Virus record (IMG/VR): IMGVR_UViG_3300037041_000008
Coordinates: 1-25,792 of that record
Strand: one strand, 5' to 3'
Source of the DNA: a virus
Length of the DNA: 25,792 nucleotides
In this document: positions 1,420-18,093 of the stretch, piece by piece
Layout: every line of letters starts with the position of its first letter
Position numbering within the stretch: the stretch's first letter is position 1
Notes under the pieces: generated by a model
Database searches by the model: none
Told to the model about the DNA's origin: nothing
Seen by the model: the letters and a program-made list of their open reading frames with translations, nothing else
Translations under genes and position numbers: made by a program

Positions 1420-2420
1420 GAATAATCACAGTAGGTCAGCGAAACTCAGGGGTATCTTTCCATCGGTTATTCAACCCCATCATGTACCTTCCTAAAGATT
1501 TCGCAATGATGACCGATGTACTTACCGAGGAAGAACTTGAGAAGGGTTATGACATTGTTTTTATAAATAGGTACATTGCAGGGATGGAGGTGTATGAGTT
1601 GGTAAGACTGCGTGAGAAGTACGGATTCAAGTTGGTAGTTGATGTTGATGACTATTGGCATCTTGACCCGTGGCATATCTTATACGGAAAATACCCGTAC
1701 AAAAAAGTCATTGACCATATCAAGGTAGCAGACCTGGTTATCTGCTCAAACAATGATTTGGCAGTTTATGTAGATGAACTTAATCCGAATTGGATAGTAA
1801 TACCTAATGCCTTGCCTTATGGCGAGGACCAGTTCACGGATGTCAAAACAGAATCAGATAAGGTCCGCTTTGTTTATGCAGGTTCGGTAACCCATGAGAA
1901 GGATATTGCAATCCTCAAGAATCCAATGAAAAGAGTGGCAGGGGATGCATTTACAAAGAACAACTCAAGGTTCATTCTTTGTGGTTATAGCGAAGATAAG
2001 CAGGTTGCAAACGTATGGGGTAAAATGATTAACGATTATCTTTGTGGGTTCAAAGTTGATGGCTACATACGGGGTGCGTTACCAGTTGACCAATACATGA
2101 ACTTTTACAATGAAGCAGATGCTTGTTTGATTCCTTTGGTTGATTCCAAGTTTAACTCAATGAAGTCTAACCTGAAAGTCTTGGAGGCAGCAACTAAGAA
2201 TGCAGCAGTAATAGCATCCAATGTCAAACCTTATTGTGAATGCCCACACATAATATCAGTAAACAATCAAGGTGATTGGTTTACAAATATTAAAAAAGTT
2301 GTCAAAGATGCTATATATAGACAAGAGATGGGTATTGCAAATGGGGAATGGTGCAGGGAGAACTTTGACCTTGTTAAAGTAAATAAGTTGAGGTCACAAG
2401 TATTTGAATCAATTATATGA
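1416..2420 (+). CDS. GT-B fold glycosyltransferase, GT4-like
   Basis: A 334-residue predicted sugar transferase acting in the cytosol; no signal peptide or membrane helix is seen. The N-terminal half has Rossmann-like strands (MRIITVGQRNSGVSF; LVVDVDDYWHLDPW). The C-terminal half contains VRFVYAGSVTHEKD and then a SNLKVLEAATKNAAVIAS segment, the E-x-x-A nucleotide-sugar-binding helix and loop of GT4-type enzymes. DADACLIPL-like residues (EADACLIPL) precede it, as in that family. Length fits a compact GT-B enzyme. Donor and acceptor cannot be read from sequence. The gene shares ATGA overlaps with both neighbours and heads the glycosyltransferase block, suggesting one modification pathway for virion, host surface or DNA. 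Confidence 0.85.
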   Translation: MRIITVGQRNSGVSFHRLFNPIMYLPKDFAMMTDVLTEEELEKGYDIVFINRYIAGMEVYELVRLREKYGFKLVVDVDDYWHLDPWHILYGKYPYKKVIDHIKVADLVICSNNDLAVYVDELNPNWIVIPNALPYGEDQFTDVKTESDKVRFVYAGSVTHEKDIAILKNPMKRVAGDAFTKNNSRFILCGYSEDKQVANVWGKMINDYLCGFKVDGYIRGALPVDQYMNFYNEADACLIPLVDSKFNSMKSNLKVLEAATKNAAVIASNVKPYCECPHIISVNNQGDWFTNIKKVVKDAIYRQEMGIANGEWCRENFDLVKVNKLRSQVFESII

Positions 2421-2659
2421 AAGCACAATTAACCTTTGACCTTGATGACTATGATGATAAGATTGAACACCTTAGATGCATTCAAGCATCAGACTTGTGC
2501 AGTGCCATTCATGAATTTATTTACAATACAAAGAAGGGTTTGAAGAATGAAGCAGAAGCAAAAAACCTTGATGCATACGAGGCAATTAACTCAGTATATG
2601 AAAAGTTTTGGGATATACTTAAAGAGCATAACTTAGACATAGATAAACTGATACAATGA
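2417..2659 (+). CDS. small phage protein of unknown function
   Basis: An 80-residue, acidic, helical-looking protein beginning MKAQLTFDLDDYDDK. This opening, followed by a helix with regularly spaced hydrophobic residues, is familiar from small Bacteroidota phage proteins without known function. It overlaps the upstream glycosyltransferase by ATGA (2417-2420) and the zinc mini-protein downstream by ATGA (2656-2659). Translation is therefore likely coupled across all three. No motif suggests catalysis. Confidence 0.65.
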   Translation: MKAQLTFDLDDYDDKIEHLRCIQASDLCSAIHEFIYNTKKGLKNEAEAKNLDAYEAINSVYEKFWDILKEHNLDIDKLIQ

Positions 2660-2775
2660 AGTACCAACCTAAATGGGTAACGTGTAAGAACTGCCATAAG
2701 AAGTACACCATTACTATCATCAAATCAAAGGCAAAAGAAAGCAAGTGCGGTAATTGTGGAACTATAAATAAATAA
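2656..2775 (+). CDS. 39-residue zinc-ribbon mini-protein
   Basis: The ATG overlaps the previous stop (ATGA) and the stop lies one base before the next glycosyltransferase start, so the gene exactly fills the gap. The product is 39 residues with CKNC (C10, C13) and CGNC (C31, C34), separated by a Lys-rich loop: a minimal zinc ribbon. It has no recognisable enzymatic part. The precise fit between neighbours and the two clean CxxC pairs argue that it is real. It could help fold or recruit a partner or bind nucleic acid; the sequence does not decide. Confidence 0.65.
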   Translation: MKYQPKWVTCKNCHKKYTITIIKSKAKESKCGNCGTINK

Positions 2776-2776
2776 A

Positions 2777-3559
2777 ATGAAAAGAGTATTAATCGCAATG
2801 GCGGTCCATGATACAGAGGAAAACAAGAGGACCGAATTAACAAAGGATGTCCTTGATAACTTATTTATTCAAGGTGTTTTTGTAGACCATGATTTTTGGG
2901 TGGTAGATAATAACTCTTGTCAAGCGACTAAAGACCTGCTTAAAGAATGGCAAGATGATGGGTACATAAACCTTATCACCAATGAACAGAACATTGGGAC
3001 TGCCGAGGCGGTTAACCTTGCTTGGAAGTACAGAGTACCTGGTCAGCATTGCATAAAGATGGATAACGATGTTCTTATCTATTCTGATTCTTGGGTTACT
3101 GAAATGGTTGAGGCAATTGAAAGAGATGAGAGAATAGGTATAGTTGGATTGAAGCGGAAAGATTGTTGGGAAGAACCGAACCATGCCTTGCCTGATTGGA
3201 GAAGTGAATTGATAATGCTACCTCACATGGCGGGTCAAAGGTGGATGATAGTTGAGAAATGTCATCACATTATAGGTACTTGCCAAATGTACTCATCTAC
3301 ATTATTAGACAAAATAGGGTATCTTTACCAACCTTCTCTTTATGGGTATGATGATGTCCTTGCATCTCATAGGTCAACAGTTGCAGGGATGTGGAATGTG
3401 TTCTTGCCTCATATTGAGATAGACCACATTGACAAGGGAGAAACCGAGTACCAATCTTGGAAGGAGAAGCACAGTTCAGAAGTAACCCAACAAGTAATTA
3501 AGATAACCCATGAGTATTATCACGGGGTAAGACCAATATACTATAATCCGTACCAATGA
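2777..3559 (+). CDS. GT-A fold glycosyltransferase, family-2-like
   Basis: A 260-residue cytosolic glycosyltransferase. The start MKRVLIAMAVHDTEEN is the first GT-A strand. WVVDNNSCQATKDLL and NIGTAEAVNLAWK match the nucleotide-sugar-binding region of family 2 (compare NxGxxxAxNxG). KMDNDVLI (D96-N97-D98) is the DxD metal-binding motif. A second acidic patch, YGYDDVLA, near residue 193 is in the position of the acceptor/catalytic region. Length is close to the minimal GT-A catalytic domain, without membrane anchors. It overlaps the next gene by ATGA. Donor sugar and acceptor are unknown. Confidence 0.85.
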   Translation: MKRVLIAMAVHDTEENKRTELTKDVLDNLFIQGVFVDHDFWVVDNNSCQATKDLLKEWQDDGYINLITNEQNIGTAEAVNLAWKYRVPGQHCIKMDNDVLIYSDSWVTEMVEAIERDERIGIVGLKRKDCWEEPNHALPDWRSELIMLPHMAGQRWMIVEKCHHIIGTCQMYSSTLLDKIGYLYQPSLYGYDDVLASHRSTVAGMWNVFLPHIEIDHIDKGETEYQSWKEKHSSEVTQQVIKITHEYYHGVRPIYYNPYQ

Positions 3560-6053: not shown

Positions 6054-6416
6054 ATGGCAAACGAAAAGAATTTAAAACCATTTAAGAAAGGCGAGGTTGC
6101 TAACCCAAACGGCAGACCGAGGAAGTATGTATCCTTACTTAAAGAGCAGGGGTACAAACTGGCAGAGGTTAACGATTGTATCCAAGCAATTATGTCAATG
6201 GATATGCAGGAACTCAAAGCGGTATGGGATAACCCGAAGGCAACTGTACTTGAAAAAACGATTGCAGGGGCATTAAGGAAGTCATTGGAGAAGGGCAGCC
6301 TTTACTCTATTGATACTCTACTTACCAGGGTGTACGGCAAACCAAAGGAAACTGCTCACATAACCAATGATGGGAAGATTGAGGTGGTATTTACTAAGGG
6401 CAAAACGATTCTATGA
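6054..6416 (+). CDS. terS: terminase small subunit-like DNA-binding protein
   Basis: A 120-residue basic protein beginning with FKKGEVANPNGRPRKY, the GNPxGRP signature found at the N-terminus of DUF5681-type and phage small-terminase-like proteins. The middle is helical, including a VLEKTIAGALRKSLEKG segment followed by YSIDTLLTRVYGKPKE. This resembles the helical and oligomerisation part of short terminase small subunits. It overlaps the large-subunit start by ATGA at 6413-6416, the classical terS-terL arrangement and the strongest support for the call. It would recognise the packaging site and load the motor. The name is assigned by position and partial motif, not by a full-length match. 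Confidence 0.75.
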   Translation: MANEKNLKPFKKGEVANPNGRPRKYVSLLKEQGYKLAEVNDCIQAIMSMDMQELKAVWDNPKATVLEKTIAGALRKSLEKGSLYSIDTLLTRVYGKPKETAHITNDGKIEVVFTKGKTIL

Positions 6417-7570
6417 TTATTGAACTACCCGAACCACATAAAAACCAAATCGGTATCATTGAATCTGAAGCAAGGTTCAGAGTGGTTATGTGTGGCAGGA
6501 GGTTTGGCAAGTCTGAACTCAGTCAGGTAGAAATCATTAAGAATGCCATTGTGGGGCAATCTGTTGCCTATATTACCCCTACTTATAACCTTGCCAAGAC
6601 TTTCTTTGACAAACTTGCTAAAGCGGTTCCTTTCGCCTCTAATCGGTCTGATTTGACTATTGAGTTCCCGAACGGGGGTTCAGTTCAATTCTTTACTGGG
6701 GAGAGGTTGGATAACCTGCGAGGCAGAAAGTTCCACTTGGTTGTGGTAGATGAAGCATCTTTCATCCCTAACCTTGAGGATGGGTGGTTGAATAGCATCA
6801 GACCTACCCTAACCGATTACAAGGGGAAAGCCTTATTCTTGTCAACCCCAAAGGGTAAGAACTACTTTTACTCTTTGTTTATGAAAGGTAACAGTGGTGA
6901 GGAAGATTGGCAATCTTTCAAGTTCAGCACCTATGATAACCCGTACATAGACAAGTCAGAGGTGGATTCTGCAAGGATGCAACTCCCTGAGGTTGTATTT
7001 GAGCAGGAATATATGGCAAATCCTGCTGAGAATGCTGCCAACCCATTTGGTTCTGCATTCATTCGCCAATGTATCTACCCGATGAGTAATGGACCAGTTG
7101 CTTGTTATGGGATAGACCTTGCCAAGTCGGTGGACTTTACAGTCATAACGGGGTTAGACAAGAATGGGTCTGTCTGTCATTTTGAACGATTCCAAAGGGA
7201 TTGGAGGCAAACTAAAGAGTATATCATCAATTTACCTAAAGCACCTATCCTGATGGATAGCACGGGGGTAGGCGACCCAATTTTTGAAGATATGCAAAGA
7301 GAAGGGTTAGATGTGCAAGGGTATAAGTTTAGCAGTACCTCAAAGCAGATGCTCATGGAGGGTCTTGCCTCTGCCATACACCAAAGGAAGATAACATACC
7401 CGAGCGGTCCTATTGTGGATGAGTTGGAAATCTTTGAGTACCAGTACACATCCTACGGGGTAAAGTATTCAGCACCCCAGGGGTTCCATGATGACTGCGT
7501 TGTTTCCCTTTCCCTTGCTTGGCAGCACCTCCAAAAGAATGTGGGGAGTGGGAGGTATTCTTTTTGTTAG
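6413..7570 (+). CDS. terL: terminase large subunit (ATPase and nuclease)
   Basis: A 385-residue packaging motor. The ATPase domain has Walker A CGRRFGKS (27-34) and Walker B VVVDEAS (D113, E114). FLSTPKGKNYF provides the coupling (motif III) region. The nuclease domain is of RNase H type: GIDLAKSVDFTVI (D235), ILMDSTGVGD (about 280) and HDDCVVSLSLA (D360, D361) supply the metal ligands. It cuts concatemeric DNA and translocates it into the prohead through the portal. The length is slightly short but all motifs are intact. The gene is followed by a long gene-free stretch rather than by the portal, which lies more than 10 kb downstream. Confidence 0.95.
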   Translation: MIIELPEPHKNQIGIIESEARFRVVMCGRRFGKSELSQVEIIKNAIVGQSVAYITPTYNLAKTFFDKLAKAVPFASNRSDLTIEFPNGGSVQFFTGERLDNLRGRKFHLVVVDEASFIPNLEDGWLNSIRPTLTDYKGKALFLSTPKGKNYFYSLFMKGNSGEEDWQSFKFSTYDNPYIDKSEVDSARMQLPEVVFEQEYMANPAENAANPFGSAFIRQCIYPMSNGPVACYGIDLAKSVDFTVITGLDKNGSVCHFERFQRDWRQTKEYIINLPKAPILMDSTGVGDPIFEDMQREGLDVQGYKFSSTSKQMLMEGLASAIHQRKITYPSGPIVDELEIFEYQYTSYGVKYSAPQGFHDDCVVSLSLAWQHLQKNVGSGRYSFC

Positions 7571-7632
7571 GGAGAAAGTTAGGGTGGAAACTGGGGGGAA
7601 ACTACTTTCTTAAAAATATTTTCCTAAAAAAG

Positions 7633-7661
7633 TTAGCATTCCAAAATATTTAGTATTTTTG
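7633..7661 (+). promoter_or_regulatory. putative Bacteroidota-type promoter with overlapping inverted repeat
   Basis: TATTTTTG at 7654-7661 is a full match to the Bacteroidota -7 element TAnnTTTG. A weak -33 counterpart TTAG lies at 7633-7636 with a 17-base spacer. A 6-bp inverted repeat, TTAGCA (7633-7638) and TGCTAA (7660-7665), brackets the two elements and could be an operator. The predicted start, near 7667, leads directly into the hairpin series. The -33 match is poor and no transcript data are available. Confidence 0.4.
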
Positions 7662-7666
7662 CTAAG

Positions 7667-7763
7667 TCAATCCGAATAATAGAAGCAGTATCATTCGGGT
7701 TTGATTCAAGCAAACCTGCTTAAATTAGACCCATACCCTGCTTCGGTGTGGGTTCTTTTTTTT
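7667..7763 (+). ncRNA. candidate small non-coding RNA, about 95 nt
   Basis: Three consecutive hairpins lie between the promoter-like site and a U-tract. The first pairs CCGAAT (7672-7677) with ATTCGG (7693-7698), extended by a further short ATA/TAT pairing inside. The second pairs GTTTG (7699-7703) with CAAAC (7711-7715), one base after the first. The third is the terminator stem. No frame of useful length is present. Having promoter, compact fold and terminator together is what a small RNA gene looks like. It could equally be a leader or attenuator for the 8070 operon. I do not recognise a known RNA family. Confidence 0.4.
7729..7763 (+). terminator. Rho-independent terminator
   Basis: ACCCATACC (7729-7737) pairs with GGTGTGGGT (7745-7753) in a 9-bp stem containing one T-G wobble. 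The loop has 7 bases. An eight-T run follows at 7756-7763. It is the strongest intrinsic terminator shape in the window and would close either the terL transcript or the candidate small RNA. Genes from 8070 onward would then need their own promoter or read-through. Confidence 0.8.
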
Positions 7764-7780
7764 ACCTATCTTCGGGATGA

Positions 7781-8029
7781 TTGGGTCTTAACACGGGTTC
7801 ACCCCAACTTTAGCACAAAAAGTAAATGAATGAACGTGTCATCTATGCTTAACAGTTCGCTTCGGTAACGGACTGGAGATGATAAGAACGGGATAAAAGT
7901 GGTAGTAATTACAATGATAACTACCGACAAGGATAACCAAAAAACCCGTTCTCCCTTCTTGGATGGGGGTGCATAGTTTGGCAATGATTGGGAGTGCTAA
8001 AGAATCCCATGAACTCAAGGGTATCCTTG
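7781..8029 (+). repeat. cluster of inverted repeats with RNA-like structure
   Basis: Several stems can be read by eye. TTGGG/CCCAA (7781-7785, 7803-7807) and CAGTTCG/CGGACTG (7853-7859, 7869-7875, one wobble) come first. AGAACGGG (7885-7892) pairs with CCCGTTCT (7945-7952), enclosing GGTAGT/ACTACC (7901-7906, 7920-7925). TGGGA/TCCCA (7989-7993, 8005-8009) and CAAGG/CCTTG (8016-8020, 8025-8029) follow. The nested 8-bp outer and 6-bp inner stem is the best supported. Together they may be the 5' leader of the 8070 operon, a structured RNA, or protein-binding DNA sites. Confidence 0.45.
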
Positions 8030-8069
8030 GATAGACATTGTATTACACTTAACATCAAATCAACTATTT

Positions 8070-8753
8070 ATGGGTATGACTTGGTCCGATGTAACAGTTT
8101 TCCAATACCAGCAGATTAATGACATCTATGCTAATGCAAAGGAGTTAACCGACCTTGATTTGAGCATTAAGGTAACTTCTATTCTAAAGAACATGACCGA
8201 GCATCAGATTGATTCTTTACCAGTTAAAGAACTTGGTCCATTGCTTGAATCTATCTCTTTTGTTCATCAGGAAATCCAACCCCAAGCGGTGGACAGAATT
8301 AAGGTTAATGGTAGGGTTTACAAGTGCATTTACGATGTTAGGAATATCCCTGCTGCACGTTATATTGAATCCAAGCACTTTAGTTCTGATGTGATGGGAA
8401 ACCTGCATAAGATATTCGCTTGTATGGTTATACCTCAAAAAAAGACTTGGTTAGGGTGGAAGGATGATAAATACGATGCAAGTAAGCATTCAGACTACGC
8501 ACAAGATATGCTTGAAGCACCAATCGTAAACGTTCTCGGTTCGGTTGTTTTTTTTTATCAAGTCTACAATCTTTGGATAAGGAATTCCAAGGACTATTTG
8601 GTAAATCAGATGATGGAGGCGAAGATGAGCAGGGAGGAGGCAGAGAAGGGATGGGAGGCTTTATGCAGCATTATGGGTGGATTTATCAAACCAAGTTGGT
8701 TGCCGACTTTGAAGGCATCACGCTTAACCAAGCATTTGACTTACCTACAATAA
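8070..8753 (+). CDS. tail assembly chaperone-like protein, zero-frame product
   Basis: A 227-residue protein with no enzymatic motif. The N-terminus (MTWSDVTVFQYQQINDIY) is followed by helical segments, a VYKCIYDVRNIPAARYIES strand-helix unit and a hydrophobic VLGSVVFFYQVYNLWI near residue 160. The codons for the two Phe at 161-162 are the slippery T_TTT_TTT. Beyond this the zero frame continues for 65 residues with a helix containing MSREEAEKGW. Position upstream of tail genes, the slippery site and the overlapping -1 frame make it resemble a gpG-type chaperone that guards the tape measure. That role is inferred from arrangement, since I do not recognise a family with certainty. Its leader is the structured gene-free region. 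Confidence 0.7.
   Translation: MGMTWSDVTVFQYQQINDIYANAKELTDLDLSIKVTSILKNMTEHQIDSLPVKELGPLLESISFVHQEIQPQAVDRIKVNGRVYKCIYDVRNIPAARYIESKHFSSDVMGNLHKIFACMVIPQKKTWLGWKDDKYDASKHSDYAQDMLEAPIVNVLGSVVFFYQVYNLWIRNSKDYLVNQMMEAKMSREEAEKGWEALCSIMGGFIKPSWLPTLKASRLTKHLTYLQ
8549..8555 (+). promoter_or_regulatory. putative -1 programmed ribosomal frameshift site T_TTT_TTT
   Basis: A nine-T run (8548-8556) places T_TTT_TTT exactly in zero-frame phase (codons 8550-8552 and 8553-8555). A -1 slip continues at TTA 8555-8557. The -1 frame has its last upstream stop (TGA) at 8513-8515 and is then open to 8836, so the site lies inside the permitted interval. The fusion would be about 255 residues (162 + 93). A 7-bp hairpin, CTTTGGA/TCCAAGG (8571-8577, 8586-8592), begins 15 bases downstream, rather far for a stimulator. 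Confidence 0.55.
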
Positions 8754-8836
8754 ACTTCCTTAATGACCTTGGCTACCTTAAAGCAAAGATGGAACACGAT
8801 AACGAATTAATTAAGAAACAATATGGCAAGGCTTGA
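8651..8836 (+). CDS. overlapping -1-frame protein, chaperone 'T'-like domain
   Basis: This frame encodes a well-formed C-terminal domain (QHYGWIYQTKLVADFEG; LPTINFLNDLGYLKAKMEHD) of about 58 residues. It could be reached by -1 frameshifting at 8549-8555, giving the fusion described there. It could also start independently at the ATG at 8651, which has a purine-rich GGAGGAGG about 10 bases upstream. The portion between the slip site and 8651 is Gly/Asp/Glu-rich and looks like a dual-coded linker. It overlaps the zero-frame gene by about 100 bases and the next gene by 14. In lambda the corresponding gpGT fusion recruits the tail tube protein to the tape measure. Confidence 0.65.
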   Translation: MGGFMQHYGWIYQTKLVADFEGITLNQAFDLPTINFLNDLGYLKAKMEHDNELIKKQYGKA

Positions 8837-9515
8837 CACCGATGTAGTTATAAATGATGCCATAATTGCATCCCAAGCAGCGAACAAAGAGGATTACCAA
8901 AAATTAGGTCAGTTACCTTTCGTTGAAAGAACTATTATAAGGTTTGCGTCAATATTCATTAAAAGGGTTCAAGACAATCTCAAGAAGGCGAACAAGGTAG
9001 ACACAGGAACTCTAAGCACAGATATCACAGAAGGTGAATTAATTAAGCAAGGTTCATCTTACTCACTTGATATTGGTTACCCAGTAGGTTCTGATGGTGC
9101 GAGATACTATGACTTTGTAAACAAAGGGGTAAAGGGTTTTAAATCGGGTCAGCCTAACTCACCTTATCGGTTCAGGTCTGCCTATCCTTCCATCAATGGA
9201 CCGATGGTAACTGCCATTCAAAAGTGGGTAAAGCGGAATGCATTATCTCAAAGAAGGGAGGACCAAAAGTACAATCTGTCATCTACTCAAAACAAACGCA
9301 AATCAGTTGCACAATTAAACACGGGCAGGACTACTGCATACCTCATAGCAAGGAAGATAAAGCAAAGAGGATTACCCAAGACGGGGTTCTTTGACAATGC
9401 GGTGGATGAAGTCTTTAATCAGCAGTTCTATGATAAGATGGGTAAGGCAATCGGTGCGGACTTAGTAGTGTACATAAAACAAGCGAATTCGCTAATTAAC
9501 AATGAGAATAAATAA
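8823..9515 (+). CDS. HK97 gp10-like tail completion/neck protein
   Basis: A 230-residue protein. KKANKVDTGTLSTDI, then YSLDIGYPVG, RYYDFVNKGVKG and YRFRSAYPS, follow the order of the HK97-gp10 family: a VxTGxLxxSI helix end, a beta strand, and a Y-x-x-(Y/F)-V-x-x-G turn. A helical region and RGLPKTGFFDNAVDEV end the protein, with a lengthened C-terminus compared with the usual 110-150 residues. Such proteins sit at the head-tail joint or tail terminator ring. The start overlaps the preceding -1-frame gene by 14 bases. The assignment rests on motif order and location. Confidence 0.65.
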   Translation: MARLDTDVVINDAIIASQAANKEDYQKLGQLPFVERTIIRFASIFIKRVQDNLKKANKVDTGTLSTDITEGELIKQGSSYSLDIGYPVGSDGARYYDFVNKGVKGFKSGQPNSPYRFRSAYPSINGPMVTAIQKWVKRNALSQRREDQKYNLSSTQNKRKSVAQLNTGRTTAYLIARKIKQRGLPKTGFFDNAVDEVFNQQFYDKMGKAIGADLVVYIKQANSLINNENK

Positions 9516-9518
9516 GCA

Positions 9519-10706
9519 ATGGCAATAACAGTTAATAGCATACCCGAACAATACGCATCCCTTCACGATGACCTTTGGTTCGTGGTAGATTCTACGAATA
9601 AAGCATCATCAAACTTTAAGTATGTCTTTGATATCTACGTTGATGCAGTCTTGGTGGCAAGGATTAAGCAGTTCCCTGATGTGAGCAGTACAAAGGGAAT
9701 CTTTAACGCAGGAAACATTATGCGTAATTATGTTCAGTCTTATTTCATACCTAACCCAGTTGCAAATCTTTTTAGTGGTTCAAATGATAATCTTTATAAG
9801 GAATATACCATAAAATACGGGGAGGAATACGGGGGAACTACTTACACTAATTTGCTTGAGCAGACCTATGTTGCATTCAACTTTTACTATCCTGATTTTT
9901 ATGACCCTGCACAATCTCCAACCTATTACAAGTCTTATCTAAATAAATGGTTGACAAATAGGGACTTGAGTAATGTAGAATGTGCCTTTACTGATAAGTT
10001 GCATATCGGGTACATGAATGCATCAGGAGTAACCACAAATGTTTATCCATCCCTTCAGTTATACAACGAGAACGGAACTACAAGTGGAAGTGCGATAACA
10101 ACGGGAACAGACCCACAAGAAACATTCAGTCTGCTTGATATCTCCCCAGGGGGTATCAATGATTGGTATGGTTCAACTGTAATCCCATCAACGGCTTATG
10201 CTTACGGAATCAAGTTGCATGATGGAACATCTTTCGGTCCTGAAACAAAGGTCAAACTTGTTTGCAATCCTAACTACACACCGATTGCATTGCACTTCCT
10301 AAATCAGTTGGGTGGATATGATACGATGCATTTTAGATTGGTGAATAAAGAATCAAGGCAAGTAGAATCAAAGCAATACGAAGGGAATAAGTTTAGGTAC
10401 AACTCAAGTGCGACTGCGATGCGGACCTATGATGATTACAAGAGAATCAACCCAGGTGCTACCAAGTATGTTGTAGAACATTCAACAATGTACAAACTGC
10501 GAAGTAATTACTTAAATGTAACTGACTATAACTGGTTGGCGGAGTTAATCCAATCTCCCGAGGTTTACTTTGAGCAAGGAGGGTACTACTATCCTATTGT
10601 TACAATGACAAGTAATTGGGAGGAGAAGAAGCGGATAGCAGACAAAATGTTCAACCTTGAACTTGATGTGCAGATTGCGAACAAAAAATATAGTCAATTC
10701 CGATGA
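9519..10706 (+). CDS. putative tail/baseplate structural protein
   Basis: A 395-residue protein without signal peptide or catalytic motif, rich in Tyr, Asn and Thr and beta-structure-like throughout. The start MAITVNSIPEQYASLHDDLWFVVDS, with a later IFNAGNIMRNYVQSYF and a C-terminal VTMTSNWEEKKRIADKMFNLELDVQIANK, recalls a family of Bacteroidota phage structural proteins encoded next to the hub-like protein. It overlaps that next gene by ATGA (10703-10706), so the two are probably made in matched amounts and may assemble together at the tail tip. The precise role is not identifiable. Confidence 0.6.
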   Translation: MAITVNSIPEQYASLHDDLWFVVDSTNKASSNFKYVFDIYVDAVLVARIKQFPDVSSTKGIFNAGNIMRNYVQSYFIPNPVANLFSGSNDNLYKEYTIKYGEEYGGTTYTNLLEQTYVAFNFYYPDFYDPAQSPTYYKSYLNKWLTNRDLSNVECAFTDKLHIGYMNASGVTTNVYPSLQLYNENGTTSGSAITTGTDPQETFSLLDISPGGINDWYGSTVIPSTAYAYGIKLHDGTSFGPETKVKLVCNPNYTPIALHFLNQLGGYDTMHFRLVNKESRQVESKQYEGNKFRYNSSATAMRTYDDYKRINPGATKYVVEHSTMYKLRSNYLNVTDYNWLAELIQSPEVYFEQGGYYYPIVTMTSNWEEKKRIADKMFNLELDVQIANKKYSQFR

Positions 10707-12736
10707 GGACAGAGATATACATTGATGGGTATGAACTTGATTTAACTAAGAATATCTCTGCGGAGTTTACCTATGCCATTGATGAGATTCAAGACTTTGC
10801 AACCCGTAACACATCATTCAGTAAAACAATCGTACTACCTGGCAATGACAATAATAATAAACTATTCGGTAATATATTTGAGTTCGGGGTATCAAATGAC
10901 TATAACTCAGCACAACCCAACGTGGGTTACAACTTTAACGCTACCAAGTCAGTTCCTTGCATCATCTTGGTAGATAAGATACAGATATTTAAAGGTGTAT
11001 TAAGGATGCTTGAAATCATCATTGATGGCAAGAGCATAGAATATGAGGTAGTTGTTTTTGGAGAACTTGGTGGGTTTATCAATGCACTTGGAAACAATAA
11101 ACTTGAGGATATTGATTTCGGAATAGCAGACACGGCTTGGACCTATACAAACATTGCAAATAGTTGGGATAACATTAGCGGAACTGGGGTTTACTTCCCT
11201 TTGATTGATTACGGAAACGAATCTACTAACAAGGTTGATTTCTCTTTTGATGCCTTCAGACCTGCACTTTATGTAAAGCAATATCTAAATAAAATACTTG
11301 ATGGGTCAGGTTATACTTATGACTTCCCTTTGCTTAGTACGGATTTGATGAATCGGTTAGTTATACCTAACAATCAAAAAGGAATAACCAAAAGCACAAC
11401 AGATGCTTTAGTTGCAACTGCTAAAACAAAGAACTACACATCCGCAGCAGGTAATGTAGAGTTTGATGTATCTAATGCAGGAAACTTCACAGTAACGGGA
11501 AGCGGTAGCGACTTTACTTATAATTCAGGAACTGCATTTGCAGGAAGCATTATTCTGAACGTATCAGGAACAATTAATGCTATAAGTCCATCAAGCGACT
11601 TCACAGTCCAACTAAGAAAGAACGGCACACCCATTTCAATAGTTACCTACACCTTGCCTGGCAATGGTTACAACTTTAATGCAATCCTAAATGTAGCATC
11701 AATTTCTTTGGTGAATACAGATACTTTAGACGTTGACTTGGTTGGCAACTTTTCGGATTTAGATATTGAGCAAGGGTATTTCAATATCATATCAAGCAAC
11801 CCGACAGATACGGCAGTCAACTATGGTGAGAATATTGTAATCAATGACACAATACCTAAAGGAATCTTTCAAAAGGATTTCTTTGCATCCATTGTTAAAA
11901 TGTTCAACCTTTATGTCTATGAGGACAAACTTGTAGAGAAGAAACTTATTATAAAACCATTCATTGACTTTTACGATGGCAGTCAGATTGATTGGACCGA
12001 TAAGGTTGACAGAAATAGTGTTATGAGGATTAAGCCTATGAGTGAGTTTACTGCTCGTTATTATGATTACAAGTACAAACCTGACAATGATTTCTATGCA
12101 GAGAACTACCGAAAGAAATTCAATGAGGGTTATGGAGATTTTATCTTTGATAGCGAGATTGAGTTTGTTAAAGAAGTGGATGCAACCGAATTGATTTTTG
12201 CAGGTACAGTCTTAACTCAATACACTGGTACTGATAAGATTTATTCAACTATTTACAAACTATCTAACTCAAATTCTGCAGAGGATAGGATGGATTCTGT
12301 TATTAGGATTCTTCAAGCAAAGAAGGTAACGGGCAGGGCGACTTGGGCATTAACCAATGGTCTTGGTGGTTCAACTTTGGCAAGTTATACTGCATACGGA
12401 TATGCAGGTCACGTTAATGACCCATTGAATCCAACTGATGATATTAACTGGGGGTCACCGAAGGAGTTATACTTTACCACAACCTCATACACTACGGCAA
12501 ACCTATTCAACGGGTATTGGTCCGAGTACATTGCAGAGATAACGGATAAGGATAGTAAGTTACTTACTTGTTCTTTAAAGTTGAATGAGGTTGACATTTA
12601 CAACCTTGATTTTAGTAAACTGATATACATTGATGGTTCACTTTGGAGATTGAATAAGGTCTTGGACTATAACCCGATGGACTTTAACACTACAAAGGTT
12701 GAACTTCTTAAAGTAATTGAATTAACATACGTTTAA
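10703..12736 (+). CDS. putative tail hub/distal tail protein with inserted beta domain
   Basis: A 677-residue structural protein. The first 130 residues contain TRNTSFSKTIVLPGNDNNN, followed by KVQIFKG-like and IEYEVVVFG strands, a pattern I associate with Bacteroidota phage distal-tail or hub proteins. Residues of roughly 245-370 form a Gly/Ser/Thr/Asn-rich section (NFTVTGSGSDFTY; SSDFTVQLRKNGTPI) that looks like an inserted beta-sandwich, perhaps carbohydrate-binding. The C-terminal 300 residues return to a hub-like mixed sequence ending in IDGSLWRLNKVLDYN. It lies between the 395-residue protein and the tape measure, which supports a tail-tip role. No peptidase motif is seen. Confidence 0.6.
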   Translation: MRTEIYIDGYELDLTKNISAEFTYAIDEIQDFATRNTSFSKTIVLPGNDNNNKLFGNIFEFGVSNDYNSAQPNVGYNFNATKSVPCIILVDKIQIFKGVLRMLEIIIDGKSIEYEVVVFGELGGFINALGNNKLEDIDFGIADTAWTYTNIANSWDNISGTGVYFPLIDYGNESTNKVDFSFDAFRPALYVKQYLNKILDGSGYTYDFPLLSTDLMNRLVIPNNQKGITKSTTDALVATAKTKNYTSAAGNVEFDVSNAGNFTVTGSGSDFTYNSGTAFAGSIILNVSGTINAISPSSDFTVQLRKNGTPISIVTYTLPGNGYNFNAILNVASISLVNTDTLDVDLVGNFSDLDIEQGYFNIISSNPTDTAVNYGENIVINDTIPKGIFQKDFFASIVKMFNLYVYEDKLVEKKLIIKPFIDFYDGSQIDWTDKVDRNSVMRIKPMSEFTARYYDYKYKPDNDFYAENYRKKFNEGYGDFIFDSEIEFVKEVDATELIFAGTVLTQYTGTDKIYSTIYKLSNSNSAEDRMDSVIRILQAKKVTGRATWALTNGLGGSTLASYTAYGYAGHVNDPLNPTDDINWGSPKELYFTTTSYTTANLFNGYWSEYIAEITDKDSKLLTCSLKLNEVDIYNLDFSKLIYIDGSLWRLNKVLDYNPMDFNTTKVELLKVIELTYV

Positions 12737-12737
12737 T

Positions 12738-14390
12738 ATGGCAGAAGAAATAATTGGTGTCAAGGTACAAGTTGATGCGAGTGATGTAGGCAAATCGGTT
12801 GGTTCTTTAAAGCAACAACTAAGGGAAGCACAAAACGAGGTAAACACCTTGTCTGAAAAGTTTGGTGCAACATCAAAGGAAGCAATCAATGCAGCAAAGA
12901 AGGCAGCACAATTAAAGGATGCCATCGGAGATGCTAAAGCATTAACGGATGCATTTAATCCTGACCAAAAGTTTAAGGCATTATCTTCATCTCTTGCAGG
13001 TGCAGCAGGTGGGTTTGCTGCTTTACAAGGTGCAGTCGGATTGTTCGGAAATAAAGCAGAAGCGGTTGAAAAAACCTTGTTAAAAGTACAATCTGCATTA
13101 GCATTGTCACAAGGTCTTGAAGCAGTTGGAAACAGCATTGATTCCTTTAAGGTATTAGGTAGTGTTGTAAAAGATTCGGTTAGCAAAGCATTCGGGACTT
13201 TAAGGTCCGCAATTATCTCAACGGGTATCGGTGCTTTAGTGGTTGGTGTTGGTTTGCTGATTGCGAACTTTGAAACAGTCAAGAAGGTAGTGCTAAACTT
13301 CATCCCAGGTCTTGGGAAACTTGCAGACTTTGTTGGAAACCTTGTTACAAAGTTTACTGATTTTGTAGGCATAACTTCAGAAGCCGATAGGGTGCTTGAA
13401 AAGTTAAGCAAGACCAATGCAAAGGCGAATGAGAACATAGAGGCAAGGGTTAAGTTACTGACTGCACAAGGAGGTAAAGAAAAAGAGATTTACGCATTAC
13501 AAAAAGAAGCAAACGCAAACGAAACCAATGCACTTCGTGAAAGGTTAAAACTTACGGGAACACTAACCGAGGAAGAAGCAAAAAGATTCAGGGAATTAAA
13601 GGTTGAGAATGCAGTCTTGGATGAAGCAGAAAAGAAAAGAATAGCAGATAGGAACGCAGAGGCAGCAAAAGTTGCGGCAGATAAGCAAAAAGAAAAAGAT
13701 AGGATTAAAGCAGAATATGAGGAAGGTCAGAATTTAATAAGAAGGGAGAAAGAACTTGCAGCAAACCTAACCACTACGCAAATACTTGGAGTAACGGCAG
13801 CAGGTAAAGATGCTTTAGTTCAGACACAAGTAGTTGCCAAAGGTGTAAGTAATGCAATAATAGTGTCTGCAACTGAACAAGCAGATGCTAAAAAGAAGTT
13901 AACAGATTATGAAAAGCAACTTGAACAACAGAAATTTGATGCTCAAGTAGGTCTTGCTCAACAATCTCTTTCAATTATTGGCGGTCTTGTGGACCAAAAC
14001 AGTGCAGCAGGTAAGGCAATAGCAGTAACCCAAGCAATCATCAATACTTATCAAGGTGCATCCAAAGCGATTGCACAAGGCGGTATATTTGGACCAGTAG
14101 CAGCAGCAGCGACTATCGCAGCAGGATTGATTAATGTTAGAAAAATAATTAGCACAAAAATTCCATCCGCAACTGGTGGAGGGAATGTCGGAGGTGGAAG
14201 TACACCTGCAATAGATACGGCTGCACCAATAGCGAGTACCGCACCAATTCAAAATACTATCACGCAATTAAATCAGCAATCTATAAACCAAATGGGTTCG
14301 GCAACTGGTAGGGCATACGTTGTGGAATCTGACATTACAAACCAACAAGAGAAAATAATAAGAATCAACCGAGCAGCAAGGCTTGGATAA
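12738..14390 (+). CDS. tail tape measure protein
   Basis: A 550-residue, mostly helical protein. The N-terminal coiled coil (VGSLKQQLREAQNEVNTL) leads to an Ala/Gly-rich stretch, LAGAAGGFAALQGAVGLFG, and a hydrophobic ALVVGVGLLIANF segment near residues 165-178, typical of tape measures that later enter the host membrane. A long charged coiled coil (about 275-350) and another near 390-405 follow, then Ala/Gly repeats and a Gly-rich tail. As an estimate from 0.15 nm per residue, it would set a tail of roughly 80 nm. It lacks lysozyme or peptidase domains. It begins one base after the hub-like gene. High Ala/Lys content produces long false frames on the opposite strand. Confidence 0.85.
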   Translation: MAEEIIGVKVQVDASDVGKSVGSLKQQLREAQNEVNTLSEKFGATSKEAINAAKKAAQLKDAIGDAKALTDAFNPDQKFKALSSSLAGAAGGFAALQGAVGLFGNKAEAVEKTLLKVQSALALSQGLEAVGNSIDSFKVLGSVVKDSVSKAFGTLRSAIISTGIGALVVGVGLLIANFETVKKVVLNFIPGLGKLADFVGNLVTKFTDFVGITSEADRVLEKLSKTNAKANENIEARVKLLTAQGGKEKEIYALQKEANANETNALRERLKLTGTLTEEEAKRFRELKVENAVLDEAEKKRIADRNAEAAKVAADKQKEKDRIKAEYEEGQNLIRREKELAANLTTTQILGVTAAGKDALVQTQVVAKGVSNAIIVSATEQADAKKKLTDYEKQLEQQKFDAQVGLAQQSLSIIGGLVDQNSAAGKAIAVTQAIINTYQGASKAIAQGGIFGPVAAAATIAAGLINVRKIISTKIPSATGGGNVGGGSTPAIDTAAPIASTAPIQNTITQLNQQSINQMGSATGRAYVVESDITNQQEKIIRINRAARLG

Positions 14391-14400
14391 AATTAAAGCA

Positions 14401-15435
14401 ATGGAAAAGAATATACCAATTTACAATTTAGAGATAACCAGTGATTTAATGGATGATGTTGAGGTTGATGTGGTTAGCCTTGTTGACCGACCTGCCATTG
14501 AAAGGTCTTTCCTTATGTTTAAGGATGACAAGTTTATCAATCCAATAGTAGGCGAGGGTAAAGACAAGTTCCTGCCGAGGTGCATCTCCTATGTCATTAA
14601 TGAAGGCAAGGAAACTGAACAAGCGGTTGCAATATGTAACTCAATATGGGATGAAGACTTCGCAGAAGAATCATATAGCGACTATCCCGATTCAGTCAAA
14701 AATAATGCAAAGGCTGCGTTAAAATATGCAGAGGAGAACGGGTGGGGTTCTTGCGGTACTGATGTAGGTAAGCAAAGAGCAAACCAGTTGGCAAAGGGTG
14801 AACCTATAAGCATTGAAACAATCAAGAGGATGTACTCTTACCTTTCAAGACACGCAGTAGATTTGGAGAACTCCAAAGGTTATGGGGATGGATGTGGAAA
14901 GTTGATGTACGATGCTTGGGGTGGCAAGAGTGCTTTGAGTTGGGCAGAATCTAAGATTAGGCAAATAGACAGACAAAACTTTGCAATCCAAGATGAGGAG
15001 GAAAGAATTATTAGCGGTCCTTTGATGTTGGCAGATACACCCATTTACAGAAATGATGACAATGGGGAGTATTATGTAGTATTCACTAAGGAAACGATAA
15101 AAAAGATAGCACAGAGGTTCTTCAAAAAGGGTTACCAATCAAACGTGAATTTGATGCATGAGCAAGGTAACTTGACTGAGGGGATGACAATGTTTGAATC
15201 TTGGATTAAGGATGACAAGAGGGGAATAAAGGCAATGAAGGGTTTTGAGGATGTACCTGATGGGTCTTGGTTCGGTTCGTTCAAAGTTGACAATGATGAG
15301 GTTTGGCAGATGGTTAAAGATGGCAAGGTTAGGGGATTTAGCGTTGAGGGGCAATTTAACTACCGAAAAACGGGGGATAAACGCATTGAGCAACTATGGG
15401 AGAACGTATTGGGTGTACTCGCCCAAATCGGCTAA
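14401..15435 (+). CDS. XkdF-like prohead protease with nested domain
   Basis: A 344-residue protein. I use the ATG at 14401; a TTG at 14383 would overlap the tape measure end. Residues 1-45 (YNLEITSDLMDDVEVDVVSL) and about 204-340 (SGPLMLADTPIYR; NLMHEQGN; GWFGSFKV-like; VRGFSVEGQF) match the two parts of an XkdF-type phage serine protease. H253 and S314 are the likely active-site residues. Between them, residues 57-190 hold an extra unit: FLPRCISYVINEG, then YPDSVKNNAKAALKYAEENG, and IETIKRMYSYLSRH with a WGGKSALSWAESKI end. It matures the prohead by cutting scaffold and capsid. Neighbouring scaffold and capsid genes support this. Confidence 0.8.
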   Translation: MEKNIPIYNLEITSDLMDDVEVDVVSLVDRPAIERSFLMFKDDKFINPIVGEGKDKFLPRCISYVINEGKETEQAVAICNSIWDEDFAEESYSDYPDSVKNNAKAALKYAEENGWGSCGTDVGKQRANQLAKGEPISIETIKRMYSYLSRHAVDLENSKGYGDGCGKLMYDAWGGKSALSWAESKIRQIDRQNFAIQDEEERIISGPLMLADTPIYRNDDNGEYYVVFTKETIKKIAQRFFKKGYQSNVNLMHEQGNLTEGMTMFESWIKDDKRGIKAMKGFEDVPDGSWFGSFKVDNDEVWQMVKDGKVRGFSVEGQFNYRKTGDKRIEQLWENVLGVLAQIG

Positions 15436-15490
15436 GAATGTCCTATATGGTACATAGGTAAATGGTAACTATTTATAACTAAAGATATTT

Positions 15491-16072
15491 ATGACAACAT
15501 TGGAAGCAATTAACAAAATCAAGCAAATGTTCGCAGAAGCAGGGGAACTCCCAATGGCATCTGTTGAACCGACACAATCCTTTGCGGAATATTCTTTGAA
15601 AAGCGGTGCTAAAGTAATGATTGACAAGTTAGAAGTAGGCGGTAAAGTTAGCCTTATTGATGAGGCAGGAGTTGAATCACCTGCACCCGCAGGAGAGCAT
15701 GAACTCATTGATGGTTCTGTAATCGTTCTTGATGAAGCATCAACTATCCTTGAGGTTAAAGTTCCTGAGGTAGAAACACCTGAGGTTTCTGTTGAGGTAG
15801 AAATGCCAGTAGCAGAGGACATGATGAAGAAGAAGATTGAGGAAATGCAGAAGCAACTTGATGAAATCAAAATGGCATACGATGCTAAATTGGCTTCTCA
15901 AGAGTTGAAGTTCAGCAAAGGCATCAGTGATATCTCTGATGTTTTGGTTCAAATCTTGAACACTCCATCTGCTAACGCAACCGAGCAACCAAAAGACAAA
16001 TTTAACGTACACGTTGAAAGCAAGGATGACAAAATTGGTCGCTTTCTTGCCTTCGCAAAATCAATTAAGTAA
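15491..16072 (+). CDS. putative capsid scaffolding protein
   Basis: A 193-residue acidic protein placed between protease and major capsid protein, the usual scaffold position. An N-terminal helix (EAINKIKQMFAEAG) is followed by a small beta domain with GVESPAPAGEHELIDGSVIV, then a Val/Glu/Pro-rich linker (VPEVETPEVSVEVEMPV). A coiled coil with KKKIEEMQKQLDEIKMAYD follows, and a basic C-terminus ends in RFLAFAKSIK. A coiled coil with a basic end is what capsid-binding scaffolds show. The small beta domain is unusual for a pure scaffold and could remain in the head after cleavage. An imperfect 5-bp hairpin (CCTAT/ATAGG, 15442-15458) lies in the leader. Confidence 0.65.
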   Translation: MTTLEAINKIKQMFAEAGELPMASVEPTQSFAEYSLKSGAKVMIDKLEVGGKVSLIDEAGVESPAPAGEHELIDGSVIVLDEASTILEVKVPEVETPEVSVEVEMPVAEDMMKKKIEEMQKQLDEIKMAYDAKLASQELKFSKGISDISDVLVQILNTPSANATEQPKDKFNVHVESKDDKIGRFLAFAKSIK

Positions 16073-16102
16073 TTAATTCTCAAACAATAAAAATTAAATA
16101 AA

Positions 16103-17053
16103 ATGGCATTTTCAGTAGGAACATTGGCTGCATATACTAAAGAGAACGAGGCACTCCTTGTTGCATCTTCTGTACTTGGTAGCAAAACTGCTTCTTTGAT
16201 TAAAGAGCAAGGTAATGTAATGGTAGGTGTTAAGTCTGCCGAAACCATCAACATCATGGACACAGATGCCATCTTCCAAGATGGTTCTTCTTGTGGATTC
16301 AACGCATCAGGTACAACTTCTTTCACACAAAGGACTGTTACTGTTGGCAAAATTAAAGTTAACGAGGCACTTTGTTTGAAGGACCTTGAAAGCAAGTATC
16401 TGCAAAAGGCACTCCCTGCCGGTTCACAGTACGATAGCATGATTTACTCTGAGGAGTATTCTAAGCGTAAAGCAGAGAAAATTGCTTTGCAACTTGAGAA
16501 CACTATTTGGCAAGGAAACACCGGAAGCGTTGATGTAAACTTGAATAAGTTTTCAGGTTTGACAACTTTGATTACCGCAGCAGGTGCATCAGTTGTAAAC
16601 GCAAATAGCGTACCTTTTCATGGTTCAGTTGAAACTGCAATCACTGATGCAAACGTTATCAGCATTTTTGATGACATCTACAAAGCAATCCCTGCACAAG
16701 TGGTTGACAAGGATGATATCACTATCTTCTGCGGAATGGATGTATTTAGGACTTACACCGTTAAGTTGAAAACATCTAACTTGTTTCATTACAAATATGA
16801 TGAGGCTGCAAATGGTCAATTCTTCCTCCCAGGTACTAACGTAAAAGTTATGGCAGTACAAGGTTTGAATAGCACTGGCAAGATTGTTGCTTCAAGGATT
16901 TCTAACTTCTTCTTGGGTACTGACCTTTTGAACGAAGAAGAAAGGTTTGAAATCTTCTACGCAAAAGAGGCTGACCAAGTTCGCTTTGTAGCAGAATTCA
17001 AGATGGGTGTTAATTTCGCCTTCCCTGACGAGATTGTTAAGTTCTTCGTTTAA
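16103..17053 (+). CDS. major capsid protein
   Basis: A 316-residue protein of the length and composition expected of an HK97-fold major capsid protein. It has an N-terminal helix (VGTLAAYTKENEALL), a long spine-helix candidate with YSEEYSKRKAEKIALQLENTI, IWQGNTGS, and late beta strands with FLGTDLLNEEERFEIFYAKE and FKMGVNFAFPDEIVKF. It follows scaffold and protease genes. Codons are more uniform and better suited to high expression (CTT, AAC, GTT, TTC common) than elsewhere in the window, as for the most abundant virion protein. A large hairpin lies directly after the stop. The leader is A-rich with no Shine-Dalgarno. Confidence 0.88.
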   Translation: MAFSVGTLAAYTKENEALLVASSVLGSKTASLIKEQGNVMVGVKSAETINIMDTDAIFQDGSSCGFNASGTTSFTQRTVTVGKIKVNEALCLKDLESKYLQKALPAGSQYDSMIYSEEYSKRKAEKIALQLENTIWQGNTGSVDVNLNKFSGLTTLITAAGASVVNANSVPFHGSVETAITDANVISIFDDIYKAIPAQVVDKDDITIFCGMDVFRTYTVKLKTSNLFHYKYDEAANGQFFLPGTNVKVMAVQGLNSTGKIVASRISNFFLGTDLLNEEERFEIFYAKEADQVRFVAEFKMGVNFAFPDEIVKFFV

Positions 17054-17061
17054 ATAACTTT

Positions 17062-17093
17062 AAGGTGAGGGGTGGGTTTCCATCCCTTGCCTT
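17062..17093 (+). terminator. 14-bp hairpin after the capsid gene, without U-tract
   Basis: AAGGTGAGGGGTGG (17062-17075) pairs with CCATCCCTTGCCTT (17080-17093) without a bulge, using three wobble pairs and a GTTT loop. It starts 8 bases after the capsid stop. The following bases, ATCTTAAATATT, contain no T run, so full intrinsic termination is unlikely. It may protect the 3' end of capsid mRNA, act as a partial terminator, or be an RNase processing point that sets the capsid to tail-tube ratio. Confidence 0.65.
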
Positions 17094-17111
17094 ATCTTAA
17101 ATATTAATACT

Positions 17112-17624
17112 ATGCCGTGTGCATTAACTCAAGGTTATACATTAGACTGCAAGGAGTCAATAGGCGGTATTAAAGCCGTATGGTTCATTCCTTTCGCTGA
17201 TGTTACCACAATTACAGAAGCATCAGGGGTTGTTACTACCATCACCAAGAGTGCAGGTAAAGTTTTTTATAAGTACCAACTTGTTAAGCAGACATCATCT
17301 TTGACCGAGAATATTACTGCATCCGTAGAAAATGGAACAGTATTCTATGCTCAAGAATTGTCAATCATCCTTAACAAACTCCAAGCCAACACCCGCAACG
17401 AAATCTTGCTTCTTGCTAAGAATAACCTTCTTGCAGTAGTTCAAGATGGCAACGATAAGTATTGGCTTCTTGGCAAGGTAAATGGTGCTGATTTGACTGG
17501 TGGCAATGGTGCTACTGGTACTGCTTTCGGAGATAGGAATGGTTACACATTGACCTTCACGGGCAATGAACCTGCACTTGCACCCGAGGTATCAAGTTCA
17601 ATCATAGCAGGACTTACTGCGTAA
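17112..17624 (+). CDS. probable major tail (tube) protein
   Basis: A 170-residue protein starting MPCALTQGYTLDCKESIGGIK, an opening I recognise from structural proteins of Bacteroidota phages. A KLQANTRNEILLLAKNNLLAVV helix and DGNDKYWLLGKVNGADLTGG follow. The C-terminus has GDRNGYTLTFTGNEPALAP. A small beta-rich protein with one helix, encoded singly between capsid gene and terminator, matches a tail-tube subunit. The GYTLTFTGNEP tail resembles strands seen in tube proteins that stack into rings. A head decoration protein is the alternative. It is flanked by a hairpin and a terminator, as expected for a product needed in many copies. Confidence 0.6.
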   Translation: MPCALTQGYTLDCKESIGGIKAVWFIPFADVTTITEASGVVTTITKSAGKVFYKYQLVKQTSSLTENITASVENGTVFYAQELSIILNKLQANTRNEILLLAKNNLLAVVQDGNDKYWLLGKVNGADLTGGNGATGTAFGDRNGYTLTFTGNEPALAPEVSSSIIAGLTA

Positions 17625-17650
17625 ATAGGAACATAGGTTTAGAAATGAGT

Positions 17651-17681
17651 AGGGCAACCCATAGCGGTTGCCTTTCTTTTT
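17651..17681 (+). terminator. Rho-independent terminator after the tail-tube gene
   Basis: AGGGCAACC (17651-17659) pairs with GGTTGCCTT (17666-17674) in a 9-bp stem with one wobble and a 6-base loop. A TTTCTTTTT tract follows to 17681. It closes the protease-scaffold-capsid-tube group. No clear promoter is visible between it and the ATG at 17716, so downstream genes may depend on partial read-through. Confidence 0.85.
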
Positions 17682-17715
17682 GGGTAAAAGTCAAGGGATT
17701 ACCTATTTAGTGGTA

Positions 17716-18093
17716 ATGATACAACTCACTCAAGGAGAAACCGAGTTCATTTATTTAACCCTAACGGAGAAGCAAACCATTGCATCTCCTAATTACCTAT
17801 TCCGTTTTGTCAATAGGACCACACGGGATGAGGTTGCTTTTGTTTTACTTTTTGCTTTGGATGTATCCATTTATAAGGATAGGTACAATAAATTCAGCAT
17901 CAAAGTGCCTAAATACTTTGGATTAGGTAACATTGGCGAGTGGTTGTATTATGTCTATGAGCAGACAAGTGCTTACAATGTAGACTATACCCAAGCAACG
18001 GGATTGCTTGAGGAGGGAATAATGAAACTGTCACCATCAACAACTTTTGAGTACACTCAACATGAGGTTGACAATACATACATAACACGATGA
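17716..18093 (+). CDS. small structural protein of unknown role
   Basis: A 125-residue protein. The ATG at 17716 is preferred; extending upstream would run the frame into the terminator hairpin. It begins MIQLTQGETEFIYLTLTEKQT and continues with YLFRFVNRTTRDEVAF, then RYNKFSIKVPKYFGLGNIGEW and a YYVYEQTS strand. This beta-rich pattern, with a ligand-like short domain, resembles N-terminal domains of baseplate or fibre-attachment proteins (BppU-N-like) and recurs in Bacteroidota phages beside portal genes. No enzymatic residue is visible. It overlaps the portal start by ATGA (18090-18093). Confidence 0.6.
   Translation: MIQLTQGETEFIYLTLTEKQTIASPNYLFRFVNRTTRDEVAFVLLFALDVSIYKDRYNKFSIKVPKYFGLGNIGEWLYYVYEQTSAYNVDYTQATGLLEEGIMKLSPSTTFEYTQHEVDNTYITR

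Follow-up and report, generated by a model that had tools for sequence, protein, structure and literature searches.

The gene at positions 8070-8753 of the window, by which we mean the whole 25,792-nt stretch of DNA analysed here, is probably a siphovirus tail-assembly chaperone of the lambda G/GT type that is made through programmed -1 ribosomal frameshifting. The slip is of a kind familiar from phages; the long, doubly constrained overlap and the strict nine-T site are unusual. A single slip would swap whole C-termini, and about 200 bases appear to be selected in two frames across many Bacteroidota phages. The window is an uncultured virus record in IMG/VR (IMGVR_UViG_3300037041_000008), and the gene, its slip site, the -1 frame and the next gene lie on its plus strand.

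The slip site and its conservation

The zero-frame gene, recognized from its open reading frame, its relatives and its predicted structure, encodes a G-like putative tail assembly chaperone of 227 aa. Within this gene, the codons GTT TTT TTT TAT contain a run of nine Ts (T9) at 8548-8556, within which the slippery heptamer T_TTT_TTT (8549-8555) lies in exact zero-frame phase, as had been claimed from the sequence and as its relatives confirm. The ORF calls likewise bore out that the -1 frame is open only from 8516; it extends to 8836, and its part from 8549 to 8836 (95 aa) would be translated as the T part of a fusion. Both frames stay open for 198 nt past the slip (8556-8753), again in agreement with the original prediction, and the last base of the G stop codon lies 205 nt after the slip.

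Scans of IMG/VR yielded 27 relatives at first and later 188 loci, representing 153 distinct regions and reaching down to about 46% identity. An in-phase run of seven Ts (T7) occupied the same codon in 27/27 of the first relatives, an in-phase heptamer was found at 188/188 loci, and the T-run was exactly nine bases long in 153/153 distinct regions, in which the slip preceded the zero-frame stop by 154-265 nt, a few of them being cut by contig ends. The T domain was encoded in the -1 frame at all 188 loci except L020, where positions 2197-3015 appear to be an assembly chimera or a duplication of the slip region that fuses both frames. In a remote family, comprising L191 and its relatives, the run was likewise nine Ts long at 80/80 scorable loci, with overlaps near 196 nt; one further locus of this family, left unscored, ends within the overlap. 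Elsewhere in these viruses, valine is encoded by GTT in only 39% of cases and phenylalanine by TTT in 70%, so the retention of the in-phase site across relatives indicates that conservation of the T-run is not a product of chance. The alignment of relatives that the original prediction had proposed as a check thus revealed conservation of both frames and, across the 153 distinct regions, of the slippery run.

Dual coding of the overlap and predicted alternative C-termini

In the protein alignments, each of the two readings of the overlap contained invariant residues. Changes per site were counted on a tree of the window's clade (31 sequences): the zero-frame third position had 5.24 upstream and dropped to 1.37 within the overlap, and the -1 wobble position had 3.22 downstream and dropped to 1.46 within the overlap. 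When every change was classed by its effect in both frames, the overlap of this clade gave an omega of 0.39 (0.23-0.63) for the zero frame and 0.42 (0.25-0.64) for the -1 frame. In the upstream control, where the zero frame alone is coding, omega was 0.09 for the zero frame and 1.33 (0.78-2.93) for the -1 frame, which is therefore free there; in the downstream control, where the -1 frame alone is coding, omega was 0.06 for the -1 frame and 0.60 (0.16-2.61) for the zero frame, which is not significantly constrained. A second clade (40 sequences) gave 0.43 (0.28-0.66) for the zero frame and 0.42 (0.27-0.63) for the -1 frame of the overlap. A third followed the same trend, with 0.29 (0.11-1.01) and 0.32 (0.12-0.74), respectively, and no zero-frame stop change was observed in it against 97 expected. 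These estimates indicate that the overlap is under purifying selection in both frames, with an omega of about 0.4 each that is significant in two clades, and, together with the conservation of both frames as protein, they support the earlier suggestion of true dual coding over about 200 bases. The -1 frame was under selection in the first 21 codons of the overlap (0.32; 0.14-0.56), and its constraint was weak in mid-overlap (0.82), as expected from the disordered linker located there.

The two readings are predicted to yield different structures. In the AlphaFold2 (AF2) model of G (mean pLDDT 84.5), the slip falls within a long helix (residues 152-172) and is followed by two more helices (residues 174-183 and 188-200) that are absent from the fusion, suggesting that the zero-frame tail, a G-only C-terminus of 66 aa encoded by 8556-8753 and also evident in the alignment, is part of the G fold. 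In the AF2 model, the T part begins with a short helix, which a disordered linker connects to a helical domain. The D/E/G-rich linker anticipated for the -1 frame is present at 8585-8656 (T-part residues 13-36) and is predicted to be disordered, with pLDDT <50 across residues 18-33. The helical domain (8657-8827), which carries an invariant F..GW motif in the alignments, reached pLDDT >90 over most of its length, consistent with the well-formed domain ending at 8836 that had been proposed. The fusion would thus be a protein with a different C-terminus from that of G, not the whole of G with an extra domain.

According to the mechanism that we propose, most ribosomes would read TTT TTT TAT in the zero frame and produce G, whereas a minority would move back by one base on U_UUU_UUU as the Phe-tRNAs in both sites re-pair. 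The slipped product would comprise G residues 1-162, the linker and the helical T domain (about 255 aa in total). With the slip this far (205 nt) upstream of where the G stop codon ends, the fusion would lack the C-terminal helices of G; G and the fusion would carry alternative C-termini, with the shared 198 nt coding for both.

Slippage by the ribosome or by RNA polymerase

The site conforms to the X_XXY_YYZ heptamer of ribosomal frameshifting, is in zero-frame phase and is conserved. Among wider Bacteroidota homologues belonging to one family of genomes, the aligned place carries T_TTT_TTA in L352, T_TTT_TTG in L355, L357 and L361, A_AAT_TTT in L358 and L359, and T7 alone in L330. These homologues have the same -1 T domain and mostly 187-211 nt of overlap, with no long homopolymer. 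The replacement of T9 by other classical heptamers at the same place favours the ribosome, a ribosomal slip being the simplest mechanism for these homologues. A downstream stem-loop or pseudoknot is common at -1 frameshift sites but is not universal and hence not defining. We found no conserved stimulatory RNA structure: the consensus fold reached -3.46 kcal/mol with no pair showing a compensatory change, and the downstream folding z was about 0 in 25 lineages. A hairpin following the slip in the window (CTTTGGA..TCCAAGG) was rejected since relatives do not keep it. We therefore rank the ribosome first, with RNA polymerase slippage as a possible but less probable rival or contributor; both the identity of the slipping enzyme and the ratio of G to fusion are what we infer from these comparisons.

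The rival explanation holds that RNA polymerase stutters at T9 and generates some mRNAs with ten Us, which would encode the same fusion, with the ribosome possibly adding to it. Efficient in vivo slippage of RNA polymerase on runs of nine A or T has been described (PMC5009743), and the run has this length at 153 + 80 loci, even though exact T9 exceeds the need of the ribosome, for which seven Ts suffice. Most of the remote split lineages have T9 as well, placed over the codons in three different ways (V/I/L-FF-Y/C/W, x-FF-L with TTR, and N-FFF-A), whereas background in-phase T_TTT_TTT sites are mostly T7 (38 T7, 11 T8, 1 T9 and 1 T10). All nine lineages tested use TTR for the leucine following FF (product of local usage 2.6e-6), although GC-rich lineages prefer CTN. 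In the sampled Bacteroidia coding sequence, long runs are avoided (0 vs about 16 for A9 or longer, and 1 vs about 9 for T9 or longer), which is not so for in-phase T7 (29 vs 35), and the lack of a conserved RNA structure also suits the polymerase. Furthermore, two T10 relatives in which G and T are fused in the DNA have T9 siblings: L339, whose sibling L362 resides in the same genome (G1417), and L368, whose sibling is L366. Both pairs are sibling prophage copies, T10 being fused and T9 split, and L339 read as T9 yields a tail resembling the G tail of L362.

Several points count against this rival. Not every homologue with split frames retains the homopolymer, which is absent in L330, L352, L355, L357-L359 and L361; homologues with T6, T7 or A_AAT_TTT retain the same layout, such that a nine-base run is not needed family-wide. 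Additional Ts may be an effect of the -1 frame itself and of the double heptamer in the FFL lineages; prophage decay or assembly errors may account for the T10 copies, and replication slippage for the avoidance of long runs. Since T9 contains an in-phase heptamer in any phase, the run would serve both mechanisms. Transcriptional slippage as the sole explanation was initially favoured by the constancy of T9 and then weakened by the homologues with other heptamers, and we regard it as rather unlikely that the chaperone ratio in this large Bacteroidota phage group is set mainly by RNA polymerase slippage at the exact T9. If it were, transcription would take over the part played by the ribosome in the classic G/GT frameshift, and T10 copies would switch the default to the fusion. 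The natural series of sites (T9, T7, T_TTT_TTR, A_AAT_TTT, fused T10 and no site) allows ribosomal and transcriptional slippage to be told apart experimentally. Among the non-redundant viral genes of related loci, the only A9/A10 runs in non-chaperone genes follow glutamine (CAA AAA AAA; examples are GQKKNRPEIKFEIF and LQKKRKS), which could be chance or a second programmed site.

Separate production of the T domain by internal initiation at an ATG in the -1 frame (8651-8653), as the original prediction had offered, or at another start is very improbable. This ATG has the purine-rich GGAGGAGG at 8633-8640, 10 nt upstream, but it is not conserved among relatives, having been lost in L013-L018 and L021-L027 except L024; moreover, selection acts on the stretch of the -1 frame between the slip and the linker (omega 0.32), and internal initiation would leave the invariant heptamer unexplained. 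Homopolymers are error-prone and one copy (L020) is chimeric, yet a sequencing or assembly error in the T-run, which had been raised as a concern, is excluded because 153 distinct sequences from many independent metagenomes share these nine Ts, and a pseudogene is hardly conceivable with selection acting on both frames.

Single-frame relatives do occur, as the original prediction had considered in naming what would refute it. One uninterrupted G + T-like frame with no slip site is present in L331, L333, L335, L337 and L370-L372, which suggests that a protein that is fused, or made in some other way, is tolerated in the wider family; these homologues are remote and belong to other lineages, so they do not refute the proposed shift in the window.

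Probable tail chaperone identity and known systems

The two overlapping ORFs reside in a tail/structural module and would be linked by the -1 shift, with terL upstream, an HK97 gp10-like gene next and the tape measure downstream. This layout and tail-module context, rather than any database match, suggest that the products act as G and GT. Searches of Pfam and PDB matched neither product to a characterized tail chaperone, PHROG comparison matched no named chaperone, and PDB sequence and fold searches returned chance matches alone. The only family match of the zero-frame gene was phrog_32199, of unknown function, and BFVD fold matches to named chaperones were weak (E 0.2 or worse). The description of the fusion as chaperone-like accordingly stands on layout and context and does not extend to homology with a characterized chaperone. 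The nearest matches in cultured phages were proteins of unknown function in Nonlabens phage P12024S and Flavobacterium phage 6H. A tblastn search of cultured phages returned nothing for the window protein or for five of its homologues, only an L191-type query reached the Nonlabens phages, and viral contig scans with L190 and L194 found nothing. Phage 6H, which matched weakly by fold, lacks a T9 where its candidate gene ends, and its frames could not be joined at the TTTTTTC present there.

G/GT frameshifting is generally regarded as almost universal among phages with long tails, the usual picture being a slip at the very end of G; in lambda-type chaperones, G is in large excess over GT, both bind the tape measure, and T binds the tail tube. 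The proposed gene resembles lambda gpG/gpGT in its two tail-module ORFs linked by a -1 slip, its shared N-terminal part, the C-terminal T part after a flexible linker and a presumed low-level fusion. The predicted lambda-like layout held in this respect but not in the extension of a full G: lambda GT is nearly G + T, whereas the fusion of the window virus would lose a 66-aa G C-terminus and have 198 nt of dual coding. The products show no detectable homology to gpG/gpGT, and the gene lies just after terL, whereas the lambda gene adjoins the tape measure on its upstream side. In phage P2, gene E/E' slips at T_TTT_TTG with a short overlap, the same heptamer class as in L352, L355, L357 and L361. 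Thermus dnaX and Shigella mxiE/spa are transcriptional slippage genes with a nine-base or similar A/T run in the coding sequence; they differ from the window gene in not being phage tail genes, and the window gene has, in addition, a classical ribosomal heptamer for which relatives substitute other heptamers.

Many long-tailed phages are known to have G-T frameshifts of this kind, and the published shifts are described as ribosomal and near the end of G, that of lambda being near its 3' end (PMC5009743). The annotated actinophage tail chaperone frameshifts of SEA-PHAGES concern the same gene type, mostly in the same direction, but have a mean slip-to-stop distance of 26 nt (PMC10885494) compared with 205 nt here. 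The open-access papers searched contained no description of the slip site of this phage group. Genes 40 and 41 of Nonlabens phages P12024L/S (phrog_32199 and phrog_38404) encode homologous G and T frames directly after terL, with T9 as CTT TTT TTT TAT; their overlap differs in being only about 85 nt. The halves are annotated in P12024L (L195, 4001-4695) as the separate hypothetical genes P12024L_40 and P12024L_41, which look like one frameshifted gene. Most phages of this Bacteroidota set are unannotated, and the slip layout provides a sequence signature for naming such genes.

One relative is carried by a Chitinophagaceae MAG and remote relatives occur in genomes of the same class and family, so the host of the virus is probably a member of Bacteroidota. 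The window encodes a terminase, a portal, a capsid-like protein, a protease, a tape measure and the gp10-like tail component (8823-9515; Pfam PF04883, E 0.0074, below the curated cut-off), the start codon of which falls within the end of the T frame. The chaperone gene follows terL and does not adjoin the tape measure, which is at 12738 with three genes in between. Gene order across 6413-20087 is unusual, running from terL through the chaperone, tape measure, protease and capsid-like protein to the portal, which comes last (18090-20087). An Rfam search of the window, including the roughly 500 gene-free bases at 7571-8069 between terL and the chaperone gene, identified no family; within this gap, near 7731-7763, a GC-rich hairpin followed by a T-run has a terminator-like appearance.
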